Positions 681 through 9,668 of a DNA stretch of 42,173 nt are shown here, one piece after another. A program made the translations under genes and the position numbers. Below the pieces are notes generated by a model. That model saw only the letters and a list, made by a program, of their open reading frames with translations, was not told where the DNA came from and ran no database searches. Origin of the DNA: Clostridiales bacterium (GTDB taxonomy: Bacteria > Bacillota > Clostridia > HGM11327); NCBI GenBank assembly GCA_015056385.1, contig SVGI01000008.1:1-42173 (forward strand). Reading direction: 5' to 3'. How positions within the stretch are numbered: the stretch's first letter is position 1; each line of letters opens with the position of its first letter.

Positions 681-836
681 ATGACACATATCAAGGTTGC
701 ACATAGAGGAACAGTAAAAAATACAGCTAACACAGGTTGCGGCGAATGCCAGACATCATGCCAGTCTGCATGCAAGACATCTTGCACAGTAGGTAATCAG
801 CGCTGCGTTAGGAAAAGCAAGAAAACGGAAGCCTGA
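681..836 (+). CDS. scfA: SCIFF: six-cysteine ranthipeptide precursor
   Basis: A 51-residue precursor of the SCIFF family (six cysteines in forty-five residues), a ribosomally made, post-translationally modified peptide found almost throughout Clostridia. The six cysteines are at 20, 23, 27, 31, 35 and 42, in the near-invariant block NTGCGECQTSCQSACKTSC followed by TVGNQRC. The start ATG at 681 has GGAGG ten bases upstream. The family is known to receive Cys-to-Thr thioether links from its radical SAM maturase; Thr33 and Thr36 here are plausible acceptors by inference. The tail after the last cysteine is short and basic (VRKSKKTEA). scfB begins two bases after the stop codon, so the two are almost certainly translationally coupled. 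Confidence 0.95.
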   Translation: MTHIKVAHRGTVKNTANTGCGECQTSCQSACKTSCTVGNQRCVRKSKKTEA

Positions 837-838
837 AA

Positions 839-2197
839 ATGATACACAGATATAAGGCACTCGGGAAGTATGTTATTCTCGATACCGAAAGCGGCTCGGT
901 GTTCGATGTTGACCGCCTCGCATACGAGGTGGCTGCATTTGGACCCGAGTTTGATTTTGTAGGTATCCCGGATGAATTAAAGGATTGGTCAGAGGAAGAA
1001 ATCCAAGCCTGCGTCTGTGAAATGAAGCAGCTTATAGAAGAGGATTTGCTGTTTGCCAAGGCGCCGGAGGTGCCCGCAGCAATGGCCGATAATTCACCCG
1101 TAATTAAGGCAATGTGCTTGCACGTAGCTCACGACTGTAATATGAGCTGCGAATACTGCTTTGCTCACGAGGGTTCTTTCTTGGGAGAACGCTCGTTATT
1201 GTCGTATGAAACAGGTGTAAAGGCATTTGATTTTCTTGTGGCGCATTCCGGTACGCGTCGTTTTCTGGAGGTTGACTTTTTCGGAGGAGAGCCTCTTTTG
1301 AATTTCGACGTTGTAAAGAGGCTTGTAGCATACGGCCGCGAAATTGAAAACAATACGAAAAAGCGTTTCCGTTTTACGTTAACCACTAACTGCCTTGCAG
1401 TAACCGATGAGGTTATAGAGTTTGCAGATAAGGAATTTGTAAATGTTGTTTTGAGCATAGACGGAAGAAAGTGCGTTAACGATACCGTCAGAAAAACCAA
1501 AAACGGCAAGGGTACATACGATCTTATAATTGACAACGTGAAGAAATTCGCAGAAGCAAGAAAAGAAAAGGATCATTATGTAAGAGGTACGTACACAGCA
1601 AGGAATCTTGATTTCGATAAGGATGTATTGCATCTTGCGGATTGCGGTTTTGAGCAGATATCTGTTGAGCCTGTTGTTCTGCCTAAGGATCATCCCCTTG
1701 CAATAAAGGAAGAGCATCTTCCTGAAATTCTTGCATCATACGACAGATTGGCAGAGGGTATGCTTCAGAGGAAGAGGGACGGTAATGAATTTAATTTCTT
1801 CCATTTTATTATAGACCTTGAGGGTGGTCCTTGTGCCGCAAAGCGTATGTCAGGCTGCGGTGCGGGCCGTGAATATATTGCAGTTACTCCCGAGGGTGAT
1901 ATCTATCCCTGCCACAGATTTGTAGGTGAAAAGAGATTCCTTATCGGTAATGTTGTAACAGGTGAATACAGCCTTGCTTTAAGGGATGAATTTGCTACAA
2001 ACAAGGTTACGTCAAAGCCTGAGTGCGATTCATGCTGGGCAAAGTATTACTGCGGCGGTGGATGTTCTGCAAACTCATACTACGAAACAGGAGATGTTTC
2101 CGGGCAGTATAAGCTTGGCTGCGATATTCAAAAAAAGCGTATAGAGCTTGCAGTAGCTCTTAAGCTTTACGATGATGAGCTTAATTTGGAAAAATGA
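839..2197 (+). CDS. scfB: SCIFF radical SAM maturase
   Basis: A 452-residue radical SAM/SPASM enzyme that installs thioether crosslinks in the SCIFF peptide encoded just upstream. Residues 1-80 resemble the peptide-recognition (RRE-like) domain of this family. The radical SAM cluster motif is C100-x3-C104-x2-C107 (CNMSCEYC), with the SAM-binding GGEP at 149-152. The C-terminal SPASM region carries cysteines 332, 340, 358, 396, 399, 405, 409 and 428, enough for two auxiliary iron-sulfur clusters. Length and all motifs are normal for the family. The maturase is immediately followed by secD/secF, a neighbourhood I recall as common for SCIFF loci in Clostridia. Confidence 0.95.
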   Translation: MIHRYKALGKYVILDTESGSVFDVDRLAYEVAAFGPEFDFVGIPDELKDWSEEEIQACVCEMKQLIEEDLLFAKAPEVPAAMADNSPVIKAMCLHVAHDCNMSCEYCFAHEGSFLGERSLLSYETGVKAFDFLVAHSGTRRFLEVDFFGGEPLLNFDVVKRLVAYGREIENNTKKRFRFTLTTNCLAVTDEVIEFADKEFVNVVLSIDGRKCVNDTVRKTKNGKGTYDLIIDNVKKFAEARKEKDHYVRGTYTARNLDFDKDVLHLADCGFEQISVEPVVLPKDHPLAIKEEHLPEILASYDRLAEGMLQRKRDGNEFNFFHFIIDLEGGPCAAKRMSGCGAGREYIAVTPEGDIYPCHRFVGEKRFLIGNVVTGEYSLALRDEFATNKVTSKPECDSCWAKYYCGGGCSANSYYETGDVSGQYKLGCDIQKKRIELAVALKLYDDELNLEK

Positions 2198-2210: not shown

Positions 2211-2239
2211 TTGACAATATTCAATGTATATAATATAAT
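2211..2239 (+). promoter_or_regulatory. Consensus sigma-A promoter of secD-secF
   Basis: TTGACA at 2211-2216 and TATAAT at 2234-2239 are separated by exactly 17 bases, a perfect consensus promoter in the 77-base gap between scfB and secD. It would allow secDF to be expressed independently of the SCIFF genes. Confidence 0.85.
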
Positions 2240-2274: not shown

Positions 2275-3534
2275 ATGAAAAATACACGAACCAAGAATAT
2301 TATTGCTTTTGTGGCAATTTTCTTTGTAGTTGCTTTTTTCACTGTAATATCATTTACAGGAATGCCCTTGTGGACTCCTTTTGAATTGGTAGATCTTTAC
2401 GGTGAGCTTATCACAGGTAACGAATTGAACGACAGCATGTGTGCATTGTACAAAATCGAGTACAATGATGATGTTGAGGATAAAGAGGCTGCTATTGCCG
2501 AAACAATAGAGATATACGAAAAAAGACTTATAAGCCTTGGCTTGAAGGATTTCAGCGTAAGCTATCAGAGTAATGATGACGTTATCATTGTTTCTATGCC
2601 CGGAATAGTACATGATGCAGACATTGCAGAATCATTTGCATCAGAGGGTCTTGTTGAAATTTATGCTCCCGACGAAAAGGAAGTAATAATGACAGCAAAG
2701 GATTTTGACTCCTTCTATGCAGGATACGATGCATCATACAATCCCGGTATCGTTATTGAGTTTACAGAAGAGGGTGCAGCCAACTTTAAGGAGATCACTA
2801 AAAAGTATGTAGGTAAAACTCTCCACCTCAAGCTTGACGGTGTAACAATAGCATCTCCTTCCATTACAAACGTTATGGATGTTGAGCATATTCTTCTCTC
2901 CGGAAGCCTTTCATTTACAGATGCGGCTACATATTGTGCATTTATGGATTCAGGTCTTATAAACGGTGAGGTTACCATGGTAAGCTCATATTCACAGCAG
3001 AGCACGTATAACGGTGCGGCAATAGTCCGTGCAATGGCTATCGGTTTTGCGGTAATCTGCCTGGCTTTCATTATTATATACAGAATGCCCGGCGTTATGA
3101 CTGCAATTTCCCTTGTAGTTAATATGCTTCTTACAGTATTGCTTCTCATTGTTTCACGTATATCAATGTCTTATGCAGGTATAATCGGTGTTGCAACAGC
3201 AATGATCATAGCGGCTGTTATAAACGTTATCTACCTTGAAAAGGTAAGGGAAGAGGTTGCTGTTTCAGGCAGACCTATCAAAACATCTGTTGACGTTGCT
3301 TTCAAAAAGACAATTTATCCTGTATTGGGTACAGCCGGAACAATATTCGTACTTTCACTTGTTTCAGTTACGTTCGCAAACGGTGGTCTTGCAGATTTCT
3401 GCAGCGCAGTAATTGTTGGTTCTGTTATAACAGCAATTATCCACTTTACAGTAAACAAGCTTATGATGAATATTTTGTGCGGTATGCAGATATCAAATAA
3501 AAAGATGTTTGCAGCAAAGCGTGTGGAGGATTAA
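2275..3534 (+). CDS. secD: Divergent protein translocase subunit SecD
   Basis: Membrane partner of SecYEG/SecA that, with SecF, assists release of exported proteins using proton motive force. ATG 2275 is chosen over an in-frame upstream start because GGAAAGGGA lies 7 bases before it; this gives 419 residues. There is an N-terminal membrane segment (about 9-28), a periplasmic region, then about five membrane segments after residue 245. The periplasmic part keeps a recognisable SecD stretch (GIVIEFTEEGAANFKEIT, then DGVTIASPSI). Two hallmarks are missing: the GLDLxGG motif after the first membrane segment, and the conserved Asp of VDANVLIFERI, where this protein reads AAVINVIYLEKVREE. It overlaps nothing; secF follows after 5 bases. 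Identification as SecD rests on the remaining motifs, topology and the paired secF. Confidence 0.88.
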   Translation: MKNTRTKNIIAFVAIFFVVAFFTVISFTGMPLWTPFELVDLYGELITGNELNDSMCALYKIEYNDDVEDKEAAIAETIEIYEKRLISLGLKDFSVSYQSNDDVIIVSMPGIVHDADIAESFASEGLVEIYAPDEKEVIMTAKDFDSFYAGYDASYNPGIVIEFTEEGAANFKEITKKYVGKTLHLKLDGVTIASPSITNVMDVEHILLSGSLSFTDAATYCAFMDSGLINGEVTMVSSYSQQSTYNGAAIVRAMAIGFAVICLAFIIIYRMPGVMTAISLVVNMLLTVLLLIVSRISMSYAGIIGVATAMIIAAVINVIYLEKVREEVAVSGRPIKTSVDVAFKKTIYPVLGTAGTIFVLSLVSVTFANGGLADFCSAVIVGSVITAIIHFTVNKLMMNILCGMQISNKKMFAAKRVED

Positions 3535-3539
3535 TAACC

Positions 3540-4406
3540 ATGAAAGCATGTTGTTCAAATCTGAATAAAATCAAATTAGCAGTTGTTATTGCTTGTGTTG
3601 CCTTAATTCTTGCAGGTGTTCTTGTTACAGTTATCGCAGGTGCAAACTTCGATATCGCTTATGAGGATCATTACTACGTTCTTATCAAAGCAGATAAAGA
3701 GGTAGATGTTGCATCAGCAGAGGAGGCTATTGCCGGATATACAAGCTTATACACACTGTATAAGACGTATAACATTGAAGGAAATAACGATGGCTTTTCA
3801 GCAGATATCCGCTTAAATGATGCAGATAAATCTGTGGATGAGCTTGTCAAGGATTTGTGCGATAAATACGGTGTTGACCCTAAAACAGCAGTTGTAAGCT
3901 CTGTTGAAGGCACGTCATATTTTGCAGACTGCCTCGTACCTGTTATAGCTCTTGTTGTTATGGTTGTTGTTGCAGGTATTTATGCAGCTATTAAGCATAA
4001 CGTCAGAACAGGCGTACTTGTTGCTGCAGGCTCATTGCTTTCAGCGCTTGCTTCTGTAGGTCTTTCACTCATAATTCAGACAAGGCTTACAGCTTCATTC
4101 TATGTAGTACCTCACGTTGCAGCTATAATCTCAATGGTTATCGCATTTATAGCATTGGATAAAATTGACGAGGTTTCAGTTTCTATGCAGAACAAGGAGG
4201 ACAGACAGGTTGTTCTTGCAAAGGGCATCAAGGAGGCTATGCCTGCCTGCGCATTCCTTTGCGTAGTCGCAATAGCTGCATTCCTTGTTATAGGAATCCT
4301 TGGCGGACATTTCTCATCAATATTCCTGCCTTTGGCATTGTCAGCAGTTATTGCTTTCGTAACATCACTTTACGGAATGATACCTTACTACGTTATAAGC
4401 AAGTAA
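3540..4406 (+). CDS. secF: Divergent protein translocase subunit SecF
   Basis: Partner of SecD in the Sec export machinery. It has 288 residues, an N-terminal membrane segment (about 12-34), a short periplasmic domain, and about five membrane segments from residue 130 on. The ATG at 3540 has GTGGAGGA ten bases upstream and lies 5 bases after the secD stop, so the two form one unit. The usual DFTGG motif is replaced by FDIAYED, and the conserved SINDTxVVFDRIRE segment is replaced by ISMVIAFIALDKIDE, which removes the conserved Asn-Asp pair. Gene order (secD-secF-recJ) and topology support the name. An intrinsic terminator at 4427-4467 closes the unit. Confidence 0.85.
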   Translation: MKACCSNLNKIKLAVVIACVALILAGVLVTVIAGANFDIAYEDHYYVLIKADKEVDVASAEEAIAGYTSLYTLYKTYNIEGNNDGFSADIRLNDADKSVDELVKDLCDKYGVDPKTAVVSSVEGTSYFADCLVPVIALVVMVVVAGIYAAIKHNVRTGVLVAAGSLLSALASVGLSLIIQTRLTASFYVVPHVAAIISMVIAFIALDKIDEVSVSMQNKEDRQVVLAKGIKEAMPACAFLCVVAIAAFLVIGILGGHFSSIFLPLALSAVIAFVTSLYGMIPYYVISK

Positions 4407-4426: not shown

Positions 4427-4467
4427 AAAGGGGTATGGAATTATAAGCTATACCCCTTTTTGCTTTT
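4427..4467 (+). terminator. Intrinsic terminator after secF
   Basis: AAAGGGGTAT (4427-4436) pairs with ATACCCCTTT (4450-4459), and is followed by a T-rich tract up to 4467. It ends only 2 bases before the recJ ribosome binding site. Confidence 0.85.
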
Positions 4468-4483
4468 TGGGAGATTATTATCT

Positions 4484-6913
4484 GTGTATAGGTCATTGTG
4501 TTCAGCAGATCCTGCGTTGCTTAGCTTTCTGGCGGCGGAATTAGGCGTATCTGTTACTACGGCGGCAGTGCTGTATAACAGACATATGGATTGTGTTGAA
4601 GATGCTAAGGCGTTTCTTGATTGCGGTGAAGAATTAAGAAATGATCCTTTCTTAATGTACGGAATGTATGAGGCAACAGATCTCATTAATGAGGCTGTTG
4701 AATCGGGGCAAAAAATAACGATATACGGCGATTACGATGTAGACGGCGTATCATCTGTTGCTATGCTTTACAGATGCTTAAGAAGCTCAAATGCAAACGT
4801 ATCCTACTATATACCGGACCGAAACAAGGAGGGATACGGCCTGAATAAAAACGCCGTAGCATCTCTTGCTGAATCAGGCACAGAATTACTTATTACAGTC
4901 GACTGCGGAATTACATCTCTTGAGGAGGTTTCTATTGCCAAGGAAATGGGCATGGACGTTATAGTTACAGACCATCACACTCCTCTTGAAATACTCCCCG
5001 ATGCTGACGTTGTACTTAATCCCAAGCAAAAATACTGTATATATCCCTTTAAGGATTTATGCGGCGCGGGTATTGTTATGAAGCTTATTGAGGCATTGGT
5101 AGGTGAGGAGGAAGCTTCAAAATACTACGATATTCTGGCTTTGGCAACAGTTGCTGATGTTGTCAGCCTTTCGGGTGAAAACCGTTTTTACGTAAGAAAA
5201 GGCCTCGAAAAAATCAACAAACAGCCGGTACAGGGCATCGCATCCTTAAAGCTTGAAGCATATAAGGTTGAAAAAAGCGTCGATTCATACGGTATTGCCT
5301 TTATATTGGCGCCCAGAATAAATTCAGCAGGCCGTATGGATTCTGCAATAACTGCATTAAGGCTTCTTATAAGCGATGACAGAAAGGAAACCGATGCTTT
5401 GGCGCACAGGCTTTGTGAATGTAACGACTTCAGAAAGCAGGTTGAGGCAGATATTTTAAGCGATTTATCAAAGCAGCTTGATAGCCGTAATCTTACAAAA
5501 GAAAAAATAATCGTTGTGTCCGGTGAAAGATGGCATAAGGGCGTTATAGGTATAGTAGCCTCCAGAATAACGGATAAATTTTACCGCCCTTCAATAGTTA
5601 TGTCCCTTATGGGGGATACCTATGTTGCCTCTGCACGAAGTATACAGGGCTTCAACATATTTAATGCGTTAAACCCCTGCAGTAGCCTGTTTGACCGCTT
5701 TGGCGGGCATGCCCAGGCGGCGGGATTTTCCCTTAAAAAGGACAAATACGATGAATTTATAAGAAAAATAAACGAATATGCAGAAAACAATCTTTCAGAA
5801 GAAATTATGGTTTCGTATGATGATTATGAATGCCCCGTAAGCGTTTCATCGGTGGATTATTTTTTGGCAAAGGAATTGGAAGGGCTGGAGCCCTATGGGG
5901 AGGATAATTCTCCGCCGGTATTTCTTTCCGAAAACGTATCTCTTACCAATCTTGCAGTTATAGGTAAGGATAAATCTACAATCAGAAGCGTTATGGAGCA
6001 CGGGATATCAGGTGTAGACTGTATTTCCTTCGGACAGATAGATTCATTCGAAAGATATAACATAGATGTACATAAGGATGTACTGTACTCCATTGAGCTT
6101 AATAAAAGGCAGGGTGTTGAAAAGGTACAGGCAAACGTACATAAGATATCGTTAAGAATAGTAAATGACGCGGATATTGACGCCATAAAAAAATATATGC
6201 TTACTGTAACCCCCGAGCTTATTCGTACAGGTGTTATAGGGTCCGATGATACAGCAAAGGGTACACTTTCAGGCAAGGACATTGTTGAAAAAATAAGCGA
6301 AAGCGTAAAGGGTACGCTTGTAGCCGTTACCGGTATAGATTCTGTAATAGATGTTTTAAGCGGATTGTATAAAAAAGGCGTATTAAAGAAATTCGAAATA
6401 TATCTTTCGGAGCTTCCCAAAAAAAGAAAATGGGGAGAAAACTGTATACTTATTTCACCCGGCGCGCATACTGTTCCCGTAAATGAATTCAACAGCATCT
6501 ATTTGGGGAATAAAGTGAATAATACTGTATTTACGTGTAACGAAGGTGTAAGTAGTGATATAATATACTATAATGAAGGGGAAAATAAAATTCTTTCCGA
6601 AAAATATACACGTGAGGATTTTGCGCGTTTTTATGTTTTTTTGAAAAATATTGCCCCAAAGCTTATTGGATGGTTTTCACAGAAGGATTTTTATGATACA
6701 ATATTCAAATTACACGGAATGTATTATAAGGACGAGAAAAGCCCGATAGATGAATTCTCGGTTACGTTAATGCTTGACGTTTTTTATGAGCTTGGCTTTA
6801 TAAAAAAAGATAAAGCAGACGGTATGATAAAAATCGAGATATTGAGTAACGTAAATAAAAAATCATTAGCCGAAAGCGTACTGTATTCGGCATATATGAA
6901 TTTATCAAAATGA
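4484..6913 (+). CDS. recJ: Single-stranded-DNA-specific exonuclease RecJ
   Basis: 5'-3' single-strand DNA exonuclease for recombination and mismatch/base-excision repair. GTG 4484 is preferred to the in-frame TTG at 4460 because GGGAG (4469-4473) sits ten bases upstream of GTG, while TTG lies inside the terminator T-tract; this gives 809 residues. The DHH domain shows DYDVDG (83-88), VDCG (139-142), TDHH (162-165) and ATVADVV. The DHHA1 domain shows [11 protein letters not shown] and GGHAQAAG (about 407-414). A C-terminal extension of roughly 250 residues is usual for Firmicute RecJ. The last four bases overlap an in-frame ORF extension of apt, but apt most likely begins later. Ordinary except for the terminator immediately upstream. 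Confidence 0.95.
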
Positions 6914-6939
6914 TAATAACAGCAGGAGGATTAACGAAA

Positions 6940-7461
6940 ATGGATTTACGCAAGGTAATCAGAGAAATTCAGGATTTCCCCAAGGAGGGTGTAAGCTTTA
7001 AGGATATCACTACTCTTCTTAAAAACCCAGAGGCATACAGGTTTGCTATTGATAAGCTTGTTGAAATTTGCCGTCCCCTTAATGCAGATGTAATTGCATG
7101 CCCAGAGGCAAGAGGCTTCGTTGTAGGTGCACCTATGGCATATATACTTGGTACAGGCGTTGTTCCCGTAAGAAAGCCCGGAAAGCTTCCTGCAGAAACT
7201 GTATCTCAAAGCTACGGCCTTGAATACGGCGAGGATGAGCTGGAAATACACGTAGATGCAATTCTCCCCGGTCAGAGAGTTATCATAGCAGACGACCTTC
7301 TTGCAACAGGAGGAACAGCCCTGGCAGCTGCAAAGCTTGTGGAAAGGCTTGGCGGGGTAGTTGTGGGCTTTGCATTTATAAGCGAATTGCTTCCCTTGGG
7401 AGGAAGAAAGCTTCTTTCAGATTATAATGTTATATCACTTGTAGAATACGAGGATGCTTAA
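6940..7461 (+). CDS. apt: Adenine phosphoribosyltransferase
   Basis: Salvages adenine to AMP using PRPP in the cytoplasm. The start is set at ATG 6940 ([10 protein letters not shown]) because AGGAGG lies at 6924-6929, ten bases upstream, and because homologues begin with this sequence; the protein is then 173 residues, the usual size. The PRPP-binding loop is [13 protein letters not shown] (114-126), and PEARGF (55-60) and RKPGKLP (78-84) are the other family signatures. It lies 26 bases after recJ and 8 bases before rel, so it is part of the recJ-apt-rel operon common in Clostridia, which places purine salvage beside (p)ppGpp metabolism. Confidence 0.97.
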
Positions 7462-7469
7462 TTTTTCAA

Positions 7470-9668
7470 ATGGCTAAAAACAACAAGACTACCGCAGATA
7501 AAGAATTACAGTTAAGGGAAGCCCTTGTAAAACATTACGGACAGAATGCGTGGGACACATTTGCCAAGGCGTACGCTAAGGCAAAGCTGTTGCACGACGG
7601 TCAGACACGCTTTTCAGGAGACGAATATATAATTCACCCTATAAGCGTGGCAATTACTCTTGCAGAGCTTGGTATGGATAAAAATACCGTTATTGCAGGC
7701 TTGCTTCACGATACTGTGGAGGATACCCCTTATACCAAGGAGGAGCTTACTGCGGATTTTGGCATAGACGTTGCAAATCTTGTTGATGCTGTTACAAAAA
7801 TAGAAAAATACGAATTTTCAAGCTCTCAGGAGGCACAGGCAGAAAACTGGAGAAAAATGCTTGTTGCTACGGCAAAGGATATAAGAGTTATCGTAATTAA
7901 ACTGGCAGACAGACTCGATAATCTCCGCACAATGGAATTTATGCGTGAGGATAAGCAAAGGCAGAAGGCTTACGAAACTCTTGAAATATTTGCCCCCCTT
8001 GCTCACAGGCTGGGTATGTTTAAGATGAAGTGGGAGCTTGAGGACCTTTCATTAAGATTTATCGATCCGGTAGGCTATGCCGATTTAAGTAAAAAGGTTG
8101 CCTATAAGCGCGTTGAAAGAGAGCAGTATGTACAAAGCCTTATTTCAGCCTTAAAGCAGAAGCTTGACGAAGCAGGTATTGAAACGCAGATAGAGGGTAG
8201 ACCGAAGCATTTTTACAGTATTTACAGAAAAATGTACCTTCAGGGTAAGGAATTTGGCCAGATATACGACCTTATAGCATTAAGAGTTATCGTAAAAACG
8301 AAAATGGAATGCTATATGGCAGTAGGTATCGTGCACGATTTATGGAAGCCCGTTCTCAACAGATTTAAGGACTATATTTCAACACCTAAGCCAAATATGT
8401 ATCAGTCCCTTCATACTACTGTTATTGACGCAAGGGGAGAGGTGTTTGAGGTTCAGATAAGAACGGAGGAAATGCACCGTGTTGCCGAATACGGTGTTGC
8501 GGCTCATTGGAAATACAAGGAGGGAAAGGATGCAGCGCAGTCTGCAAACGATTCCTTCGAAAGCCTTATGCTTCGTTTGCGTGAGCTTCTTGAATGGCAG
8601 AGTGAGGATCACGATGCAGAGGACTTTATAAATGCCGTTAAGGAGGACCTTGTAGTAGATGAGGTGCTTGTATTCACTCCCAAGGGTGATTTGAAAAGCT
8701 TACCCAAGGGCTCCACACCTATCGACTTTGCATACCACGTTCACAGCGAGGTAGGTAATAAGTGCGCAAGCGCCCAGGTAAACGGTAAACAGGTTCCTTT
8801 GAACTATACTCTTCAGACAGGCGACGTTGTATCTATAAGAACACTTTCAATGGCGCGTCCCAGCCGTGATTGGCTTAATATTGTAAAGAGCACACAGGCA
8901 AGGGAAAAAATTAAGGCGTATTTCAAGAAAACCAACCGTGATGAAAACGTTATACGCGGTAAGGATATGCTTGAAAGGGACGCAAAGCGCCAGGGCTATC
9001 TTTTGAGTGAGCTCGTCAAAAAGGATGCTCTTTCAAACGTTTTGTCCCGCTATTCATTCAAAAATCCAGACGATTTGTACGCGTCTGTCGGATACGGCGG
9101 CCTTACTACAAACAAGGTTCTGTTTAAGCTTATAGAATACTATAAAGAGGAACAGAAGAATAATCCCGATGCTGTTCTTGCAGAAGCAAATCTCAAGGGC
9201 AAAAAGCCTTCGAAATCAACGTGCCACGGCGTTTATATCCCCGGCGTTGATAACGTTATGGTTCGCTTTGCGAATTGCTGTAATCCTATACCGGGAGATC
9301 CTATAGTAGGCTACATTACAAAGGGTAACGGTGTAAGCGTTCACAGGCTTGATTGCTCGAATATAGCCTCAACGGAAAACAGTGATTACAGAATGGTTGA
9401 TGTAAAGTGGGACGACGGTTATAAGGGTATGTTCCTTTCCAGAGTTACGGTTATAGCTGATGCAGGAGTGAATATTAACAAGCTTTCCGCTGATATTACA
9501 CTTATGATAGCGGATATAGGCATGGAGCTTGTAATTATATCACTCGATAGACATAAAAACGTTATTAAAATATCCGTTAACCTGAAAAATGTTGACCAGT
9601 TGAACAATTTTATAAATAAGATAAAAGCAAAGCAGGGCGTAAAAAACGCCTTCAGAACCAATGAATAA
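7470..9668 (+). CDS. relA: Bifunctional (p)ppGpp synthetase/hydrolase Rel
   Basis: Makes and degrades the stringent-response alarmone (p)ppGpp. Full length at 732 residues. The HD hydrolase domain shows H56, H80-D81 and D147/D150 in LADRLDNLR, so the hydrolase site is intact. The synthetase domain shows GRPKHFYSIYRKM and the RFKD motif (298-301), the RxKD form found in bifunctional enzymes, then YQSLHTTV. TGS follows at about 390-455, then the Cys-containing RIS/zinc-finger region (CCNPIPGDPIVGY) and a C-terminal ACT domain. There is no strong ribosome binding site; GAGG in the end of apt may serve, suggesting translational coupling to apt 8 bases upstream. Confidence 0.97.
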   Translation: MAKNNKTTADKELQLREALVKHYGQNAWDTFAKAYAKAKLLHDGQTRFSGDEYIIHPISVAITLAELGMDKNTVIAGLLHDTVEDTPYTKEELTADFGIDVANLVDAVTKIEKYEFSSSQEAQAENWRKMLVATAKDIRVIVIKLADRLDNLRTMEFMREDKQRQKAYETLEIFAPLAHRLGMFKMKWELEDLSLRFIDPVGYADLSKKVAYKRVEREQYVQSLISALKQKLDEAGIETQIEGRPKHFYSIYRKMYLQGKEFGQIYDLIALRVIVKTKMECYMAVGIVHDLWKPVLNRFKDYISTPKPNMYQSLHTTVIDARGEVFEVQIRTEEMHRVAEYGVAAHWKYKEGKDAAQSANDSFESLMLRLRELLEWQSEDHDAEDFINAVKEDLVVDEVLVFTPKGDLKSLPKGSTPIDFAYHVHSEVGNKCASAQVNGKQVPLNYTLQTGDVVSIRTLSMARPSRDWLNIVKSTQAREKIKAYFKKTNRDENVIRGKDMLERDAKRQGYLLSELVKKDALSNVLSRYSFKNPDDLYASVGYGGLTTNKVLFKLIEYYKEEQKNNPDAVLAEANLKGKKPSKSTCHGVYIPGVDNVMVRFANCCNPIPGDPIVGYITKGNGVSVHRLDCSNIASTENSDYRMVDVKWDDGYKGMFLSRVTVIADAGVNINKLSADITLMIADIGMELVIISLDRHKNVIKISVNLKNVDQLNNFINKIKAKQGVKNAFRTNE

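Follow-up and report, generated by a model that had tools for sequence, protein, structure and literature searches.

The window, by which we mean the whole 42,173-nucleotide stretch of clostridial DNA analysed here (Table 1), carries a secD-secF pair whose proton relay no longer has any of its charged residues: lost are SecD Asp340 and Asp365 as well as SecF Asp637 and Arg671 (T. thermophilus numbering). We consider it probable (about 0.6) that this is the native secDF of a small-genome clostridium, which descended in place, lost the whole relay and is still functional without coupling to the proton-motive force (PMF).

The pair is regarded as native because it lies at the ancestral clostridial locus, scfA-scfB-secD-secF-recJ-apt-relA. 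In three genomes of a sister genus from the same family, secD-secF-recJ-apt-relA and the next genes follow in an order identical to that of the window, and other Clostridia share the order scfB-secD-secF-recJ-apt-relA, with scfB upstream too. The small ORF preceding scfB resembles scfA, the SCIFF precursor peptide. From gene order we take the gene downstream of secF to be recJ, and the next two genes are presumably apt and relA/spoT. Since the ancestral locus is retained, horizontal replacement of secDF is unlikely. A sequence-only reading of this DNA had noted a perfect promoter, and in the one upstream of secD all 12 positions indeed match. The genome assembly consists of 71 contigs and is 85% complete, so that absences reported for it are provisional.

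Table 1. Features of the secDF locus; positions are those of the window.
Feature	Position	Strand	Remarks
Source: Clostridiales bacterium (Bacillota; Clostridia; HGM11327), GCA_015056385.1, contig SVGI01000008.1	1-42,173		
scfA-like small Cys-rich ORF (MTHIKVAHRGTVKNTANTGCGECQTSCQSACKTSCTVGNQRC...)	681-836		directly 5' of scfB
scfB, SCIFF peptide maturase (radical SAM)	839..2197	+	TIGR03974, 9.3e-187; conserved upstream neighbour
Promoter, sigma-70 type, TTGACA-17-TATAAT	2211..2239	+	12/12 matches, 5' of secD; predicted by position
secD, relay-less	2275..3534	+	419 aa, ATG start, complete ORF
SecD P1 head subdomain, residues 134-227	2674..2955	+	PF22599; best-kept part of SecD
SecD TM4 helix, residues 300-331	3172..3267	+	Asp340 equivalent is Val315, codon 3217-3219
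secF, relay-less	3540..4406	+	288 aa, complete ORF
SecF Ile201 codon, Asp637 equivalent	4140..4142	+	alignment; Asn in sister genus
SecF Ala236 codon, TM11 Arg671 equivalent	4245..4247	+	alignment
Terminator-like hairpin then T-run, 3' of secF	4427..4459	+	-16.5 kcal/mol, z -3.1
recJ-like gene, conserved downstream neighbour	4460..6913	+	39-41% identity to sister genus
apt-like gene	6910..7461	+	59-60% identity to sister genus
relA/spoT-like gene	7470..9668	+	64-67% identity to sister genus

Both proteins score far under the curated family cut-offs. SecD matches TIGR01129 with 105.2 bits (4.2e-30; cut-off 244.4) and SecF matches TIGR00966 with 30.3 bits (2.8e-7; cut-off 160); only the P1 head of SecD lies above its cut-off (PF22599, 2.1e-9, 37.7 bits against 27), and PF02355 (Pfam SecD_SecF_C) has no match in the window SecF or anywhere in the genome. 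The AlphaFold models, which are moderately confident (pLDDT 71.5 for SecD and 62.5 for SecF, the latter with six TM helices and a P4-like domain), have SecDF as their top PDB match in Foldseek (5xan, 9.8e-18, and 5xap, 2.6e-5), with TM-scores of about 0.4-0.5 by query length. Because of the family-profile matches and these top structure matches, the proteins are a true, very divergent SecD and SecF. With canonical SecDF, a proton-driven accessory of the translocon that belongs to the RND superfamily (T. thermophilus 3aqp, 5xan and 5yhf; E. coli SecDF-YajC), they share the gene pair and its order, the P1 head, the membrane architecture and the clostridial locus. Two models of other divergent SecDFs show weak likeness, the variant type NF037998 to SecD (27.9 bits) and SecDF_plasm NF046001 to SecF (33.8 bits), but each describes a single long protein (1237 and 878 positions, respectively), unlike the separate SecD and SecF of the window.

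To place the relay, residues were mapped to T. thermophilus SecDF, in which it comprises Asp340, Asp637 and Arg671, across 54 canonical pairs, namely 48 clostridial pairs (three of which belong to the window genome's own family) and six from family f6. SecD Asp340 and SecF Arg671 are present in 54/54 of these pairs and both absent in the window. Of the 55 SecDs with Asp340, 54 also have the TM5 residue Asp365, which the window likewise lacks. The Asp637 site is more variable: when families f1 and f6 are set aside, the remaining 45 canonical clostridial pairs have Asp 28 times, Asn 13 times and Ala four times, and Asn is found in 3/3 sister-genus genomes and 6/6 canonical f6 pairs. Judged from these alignments, SecD Asp and SecF Arg form the strictly conserved relay pair, SecF Asp637 being the poorer marker. 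This agrees with E. coli genetics, in which SecD Asp519 and SecF Arg247 are crucial (PMC3643904; PMC8669966).

In the window SecD, AAVINVIYLEK aligns with VDANVIIFER or near-variants in the 54 canonical clostridial SecDs, so that Val315 takes the place of the TM4 Asp; the equivalent of Asp365 in TM5 is Gly. In SecF, ISMVIAFIALDKIDE aligns with GYSIN(D/N/A)TIVIFDRIRE, which puts Ile201 at the Asp637 site, and the TM9 Asp is Ser. Arg671 corresponds to Ala236, where a nearby alignment gap makes the absence of Arg surer than the exact residue. The sequence-only reading had reported paired loss of the Asp residues in both subunits, and both are indeed replaced. Its choice of residues holds for the SecD Asp, which is diagnostic, but less so for the SecF Asp, which is not generally conserved (Asn or Ala in 17/45), and it overlooked the second essential residue, SecF Arg, which is also lost. 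The GLDLxGG and DFTGG motifs are gone as it had stated, their positions being occupied by TGNELNDS and AYEDHY. An Asp at a shifted position was rejected, since the hydrophobic segments TM4, TM5, TM10 and TM11 of the window SecD and SecF hold no acidic residue. A clade-wide trait was rejected as well, since the three same-family genomes of the sister genus retain both SecD Asp and SecF Arg. A search of the 85% complete genome for a second SecDF gave none.

The divergence of the pair is extreme. Identity to the sister genus is 25-26% for SecD and 21-23% for SecF, as against 39-67% for neighbouring genes, and the end branches leading to the window amount to 6.5 and 10 changes per site, estimates that are rough at such lengths, with medians of 0.49 and 0.59. 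Compared with these medians, the window branches lie far beyond chance; branches as long as these also fit strongly relaxed selection. Despite the divergence, the genes remain paired, and the P1 head and the hydrophobic segments are retained. When the sister genes were evolved neutrally to the observed identity (100 runs each), 5-21 stops arose in SecD and 2-17 in SecF, compared with none in the 707 codons of the window. The intact ORFs, together with the promoter and the terminator, speak for a pair that is expressed and under selection, and in the window lineage it is from these three features that we infer selection. No close relatives of the window genome came from a SecD scan of genome contigs; a ScfB scan returned distant Clostridia only, and where these ScfB loci lacked a recognisable SecD, a divergent one was not present either. 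Since the scores of SecY, SecA, YidC and YajC in this genome are like those in relatives, the change is confined to SecDF within the tested Sec system, and a general rate increase across that system was rejected.

Loss of the SecD Asp is not unique to the window. A TIGR01129 screen of 393 genomes of the class, with follow-up of low scorers, found it lost in 13 genomes of family f57, in 5/6 of f68, in one of f81 and in 3/9 of f6, the last forming part of one genus. These relay-less families share adjacent secD and secF genes, loss of the TM4 Asp and small genomes (0.9-2.0 Mb), and a second canonical SecD was not found in their relay-less genomes. About 60 of the 393 genomes had no SecD match at all (E 0.001), which indicates that SecDF is dispensable in the class, and some 17 more had weak or fragmentary matches only. 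The losses in f57, f68, f81 and f6 are separate from that in the window and form a graded series: the f6 pairs lost the SecD Asp (in 1/3 the Arg too), f68 lost Asp and Arg, and the window and f57 lost nearly all. The TM5 Asp, lost in the window, is retained in the relay-less pairs of f6, f68 and f81, and the SecF Arg is retained in 2/3 of those of f6. In both the SecD and the SecF tree the f6 losers fall as one pair and one separate branch, which implies one or two losses. The f68 locus is ancestral, with scfB upstream and recJ downstream, and the SecF Arg is missing from the same five genomes that lost the SecD Asp. The sixth f68 genome, L081, encodes a very divergent SecDF in which SecD Asp and SecF Arg persist but Asp637 and the TM9 Asp do not; the genome also retains a rotary-ATPase c subunit.

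Further changes are seen in the f57 pairs. Their SecF is only about 180-240 aa long and stops soon after TM10 (L085, L087, L089, L090, L092-L098, L100 and L106), so that, in contrast to the 288-aa SecF of the window, the last part of the membrane bundle is lost. Both f57 loci that were read lie in a gene neighbourhood different from the ancestral one, and none of the eight f57 genomes tested has a YajC over the family cut-off. Values of dN/dS (NG86) for relay-less genes are 0.15-0.27 for SecD and 0.07-0.29 for SecF in f57, and 0.14 and 0.16 for the f6 pairs, compared with 0.08-0.17 for canonical pairs. These values show that relay-less genes are under purifying selection in two lineages, f57 and f6. 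The sequence-only proposal of a changed mechanism rather than decay is partly supported: it gains from other lineages that lost the SecD Asp, where dN/dS is well under 1; for the window lineage itself it draws, by inference, on the conserved locus, intact ORFs, promoter and terminator.

Relay loss coincides with a reduced complement of rotary ATPases. The F-type a subunit, present in the sister genus, was looked for in the window genome (85% complete) and in 17 further relay-less genomes and was found in none of them. The c subunit common to F- and V-type enzymes is absent from 17/23 relay-less genomes, as against about 17 of 294 others, these being the genomes with a canonical-scoring SecD as counted from the screen, in a minority of which the Asp was checked singly. 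This contrast is strong when relatedness is ignored (Fisher 2.8e-14), but the link is confounded by ancestry: six relay-less genomes possess a c subunit, and all f6 genomes lack one, although most of them have an intact relay. As the canonical f6 genomes also lack it, ATPase loss would have come first there, if the link is causal.

We propose that a canonical SecDF at the ancestral locus lost its intramembrane relay but preserved its P1 head, its membrane architecture and the pairing of its genes. P1 would then, most likely as a passive ratchet or holdase, bind the polypeptide as it emerges at the outer face and limit backsliding, and the relay-less complex would still organise SecYEG, YidC and YajC, serving the translocon as an accessory that is not coupled to protons. 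SecA with ATP would be the main drive for export. The relay may have become dispensable because these presumed fermenters lost the rotary ATPase and lean less on the PMF. To what extent SecDF is a proton-powered motor at all is still debated. In E. coli, the Asp519 mutant does not support growth, and the SecDF proton wire is required for outer-membrane protein maturation, while ATP- and PMF-driven passage through SecYEG proceeds without it (PMC7695460). The Clostridia in question are probably monoderm, and the wire may therefore matter less in them; together with its dispensability for passage through SecYEG, this favours a passive accessory. That SecDF evolved repeatedly into a proton-independent accessory in Clostridia without rotary ATPase, its essential service there being passive (holding the substrate or organising the translocon) instead of a proton-driven pull, is a more tentative proposal, to which we give somewhat less than even odds.

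The main rival to a functional, uncoupled SecDF is relaxed selection in a pair that is heading for loss: SecDF would be little used, its genes would drift and the pair would simply not yet have been hit. The very long branches of secD and secF fit this reading, and the window state could be a step towards the absence of a SecD match seen in about 60 of the 393 genomes. One f57 genome (G113) has no SecD match though its relatives carry a divergent one, and in f68 dN/dS (NG86) reaches 0.52, at divergences too deep for the method. We nevertheless regard this explanation as rather unlikely, since simulated neutral drift introduced 2-21 stops per gene where the window has none, the genes are still paired and keep the P1 head and the hydrophobic segments, and dN/dS is well under 1 in the relay-less pairs of f57 and f6.

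Recruitment of the pair to another task, as a dedicated exporter, membrane scaffold or cell-wall factor away from the general Sec translocon, appears improbable for the window, where the locus is still ancestral, SecY, SecA, YidC and YajC are present and no particular new substrate is indicated. The loss of relay and signature motifs from a protein that keeps its P1 head and fold would suit such a change, as would the truncated SecF, the two relocated loci and the missing YajC of f57. A complex still driven by ions, through other residues or another ion, is very unlikely: SecDFs using Na+ in place of H+ exist, and Asn317 lies inside TM4 of the window SecD, but the known Na+-type proteins retain the same Asp, and the four segments named above hold no acidic residue. 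Finally, we give almost no credence to an artefact such as an assembly chimera, a wrong frame or misaligned residues; the assembly is fragmented, but the locus is continuous, flanked by scfB on one side and by conserved genes on the downstream side, and similar states recur in other genomes with a completeness of 97-100%.

A survey of a library of open-access papers found none on relay-less, selected SecDFs. Such proteins, which have cousins with an intact relay in several lineages, are ready-made separation-of-function mutants and allow one to ask what SecDF does when protons are taken away. If the link to the ATPase is true, they would also illustrate the adaptation of protein export in cells that make sparing use of the PMF. 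Within one genus with genomes of about 0.8-1.2 Mb, the SecD Asp is kept in some members and lost in others (L080, L132 and L133 versus L115, L116 and L121-L123), which provides a natural series for tracing its loss.
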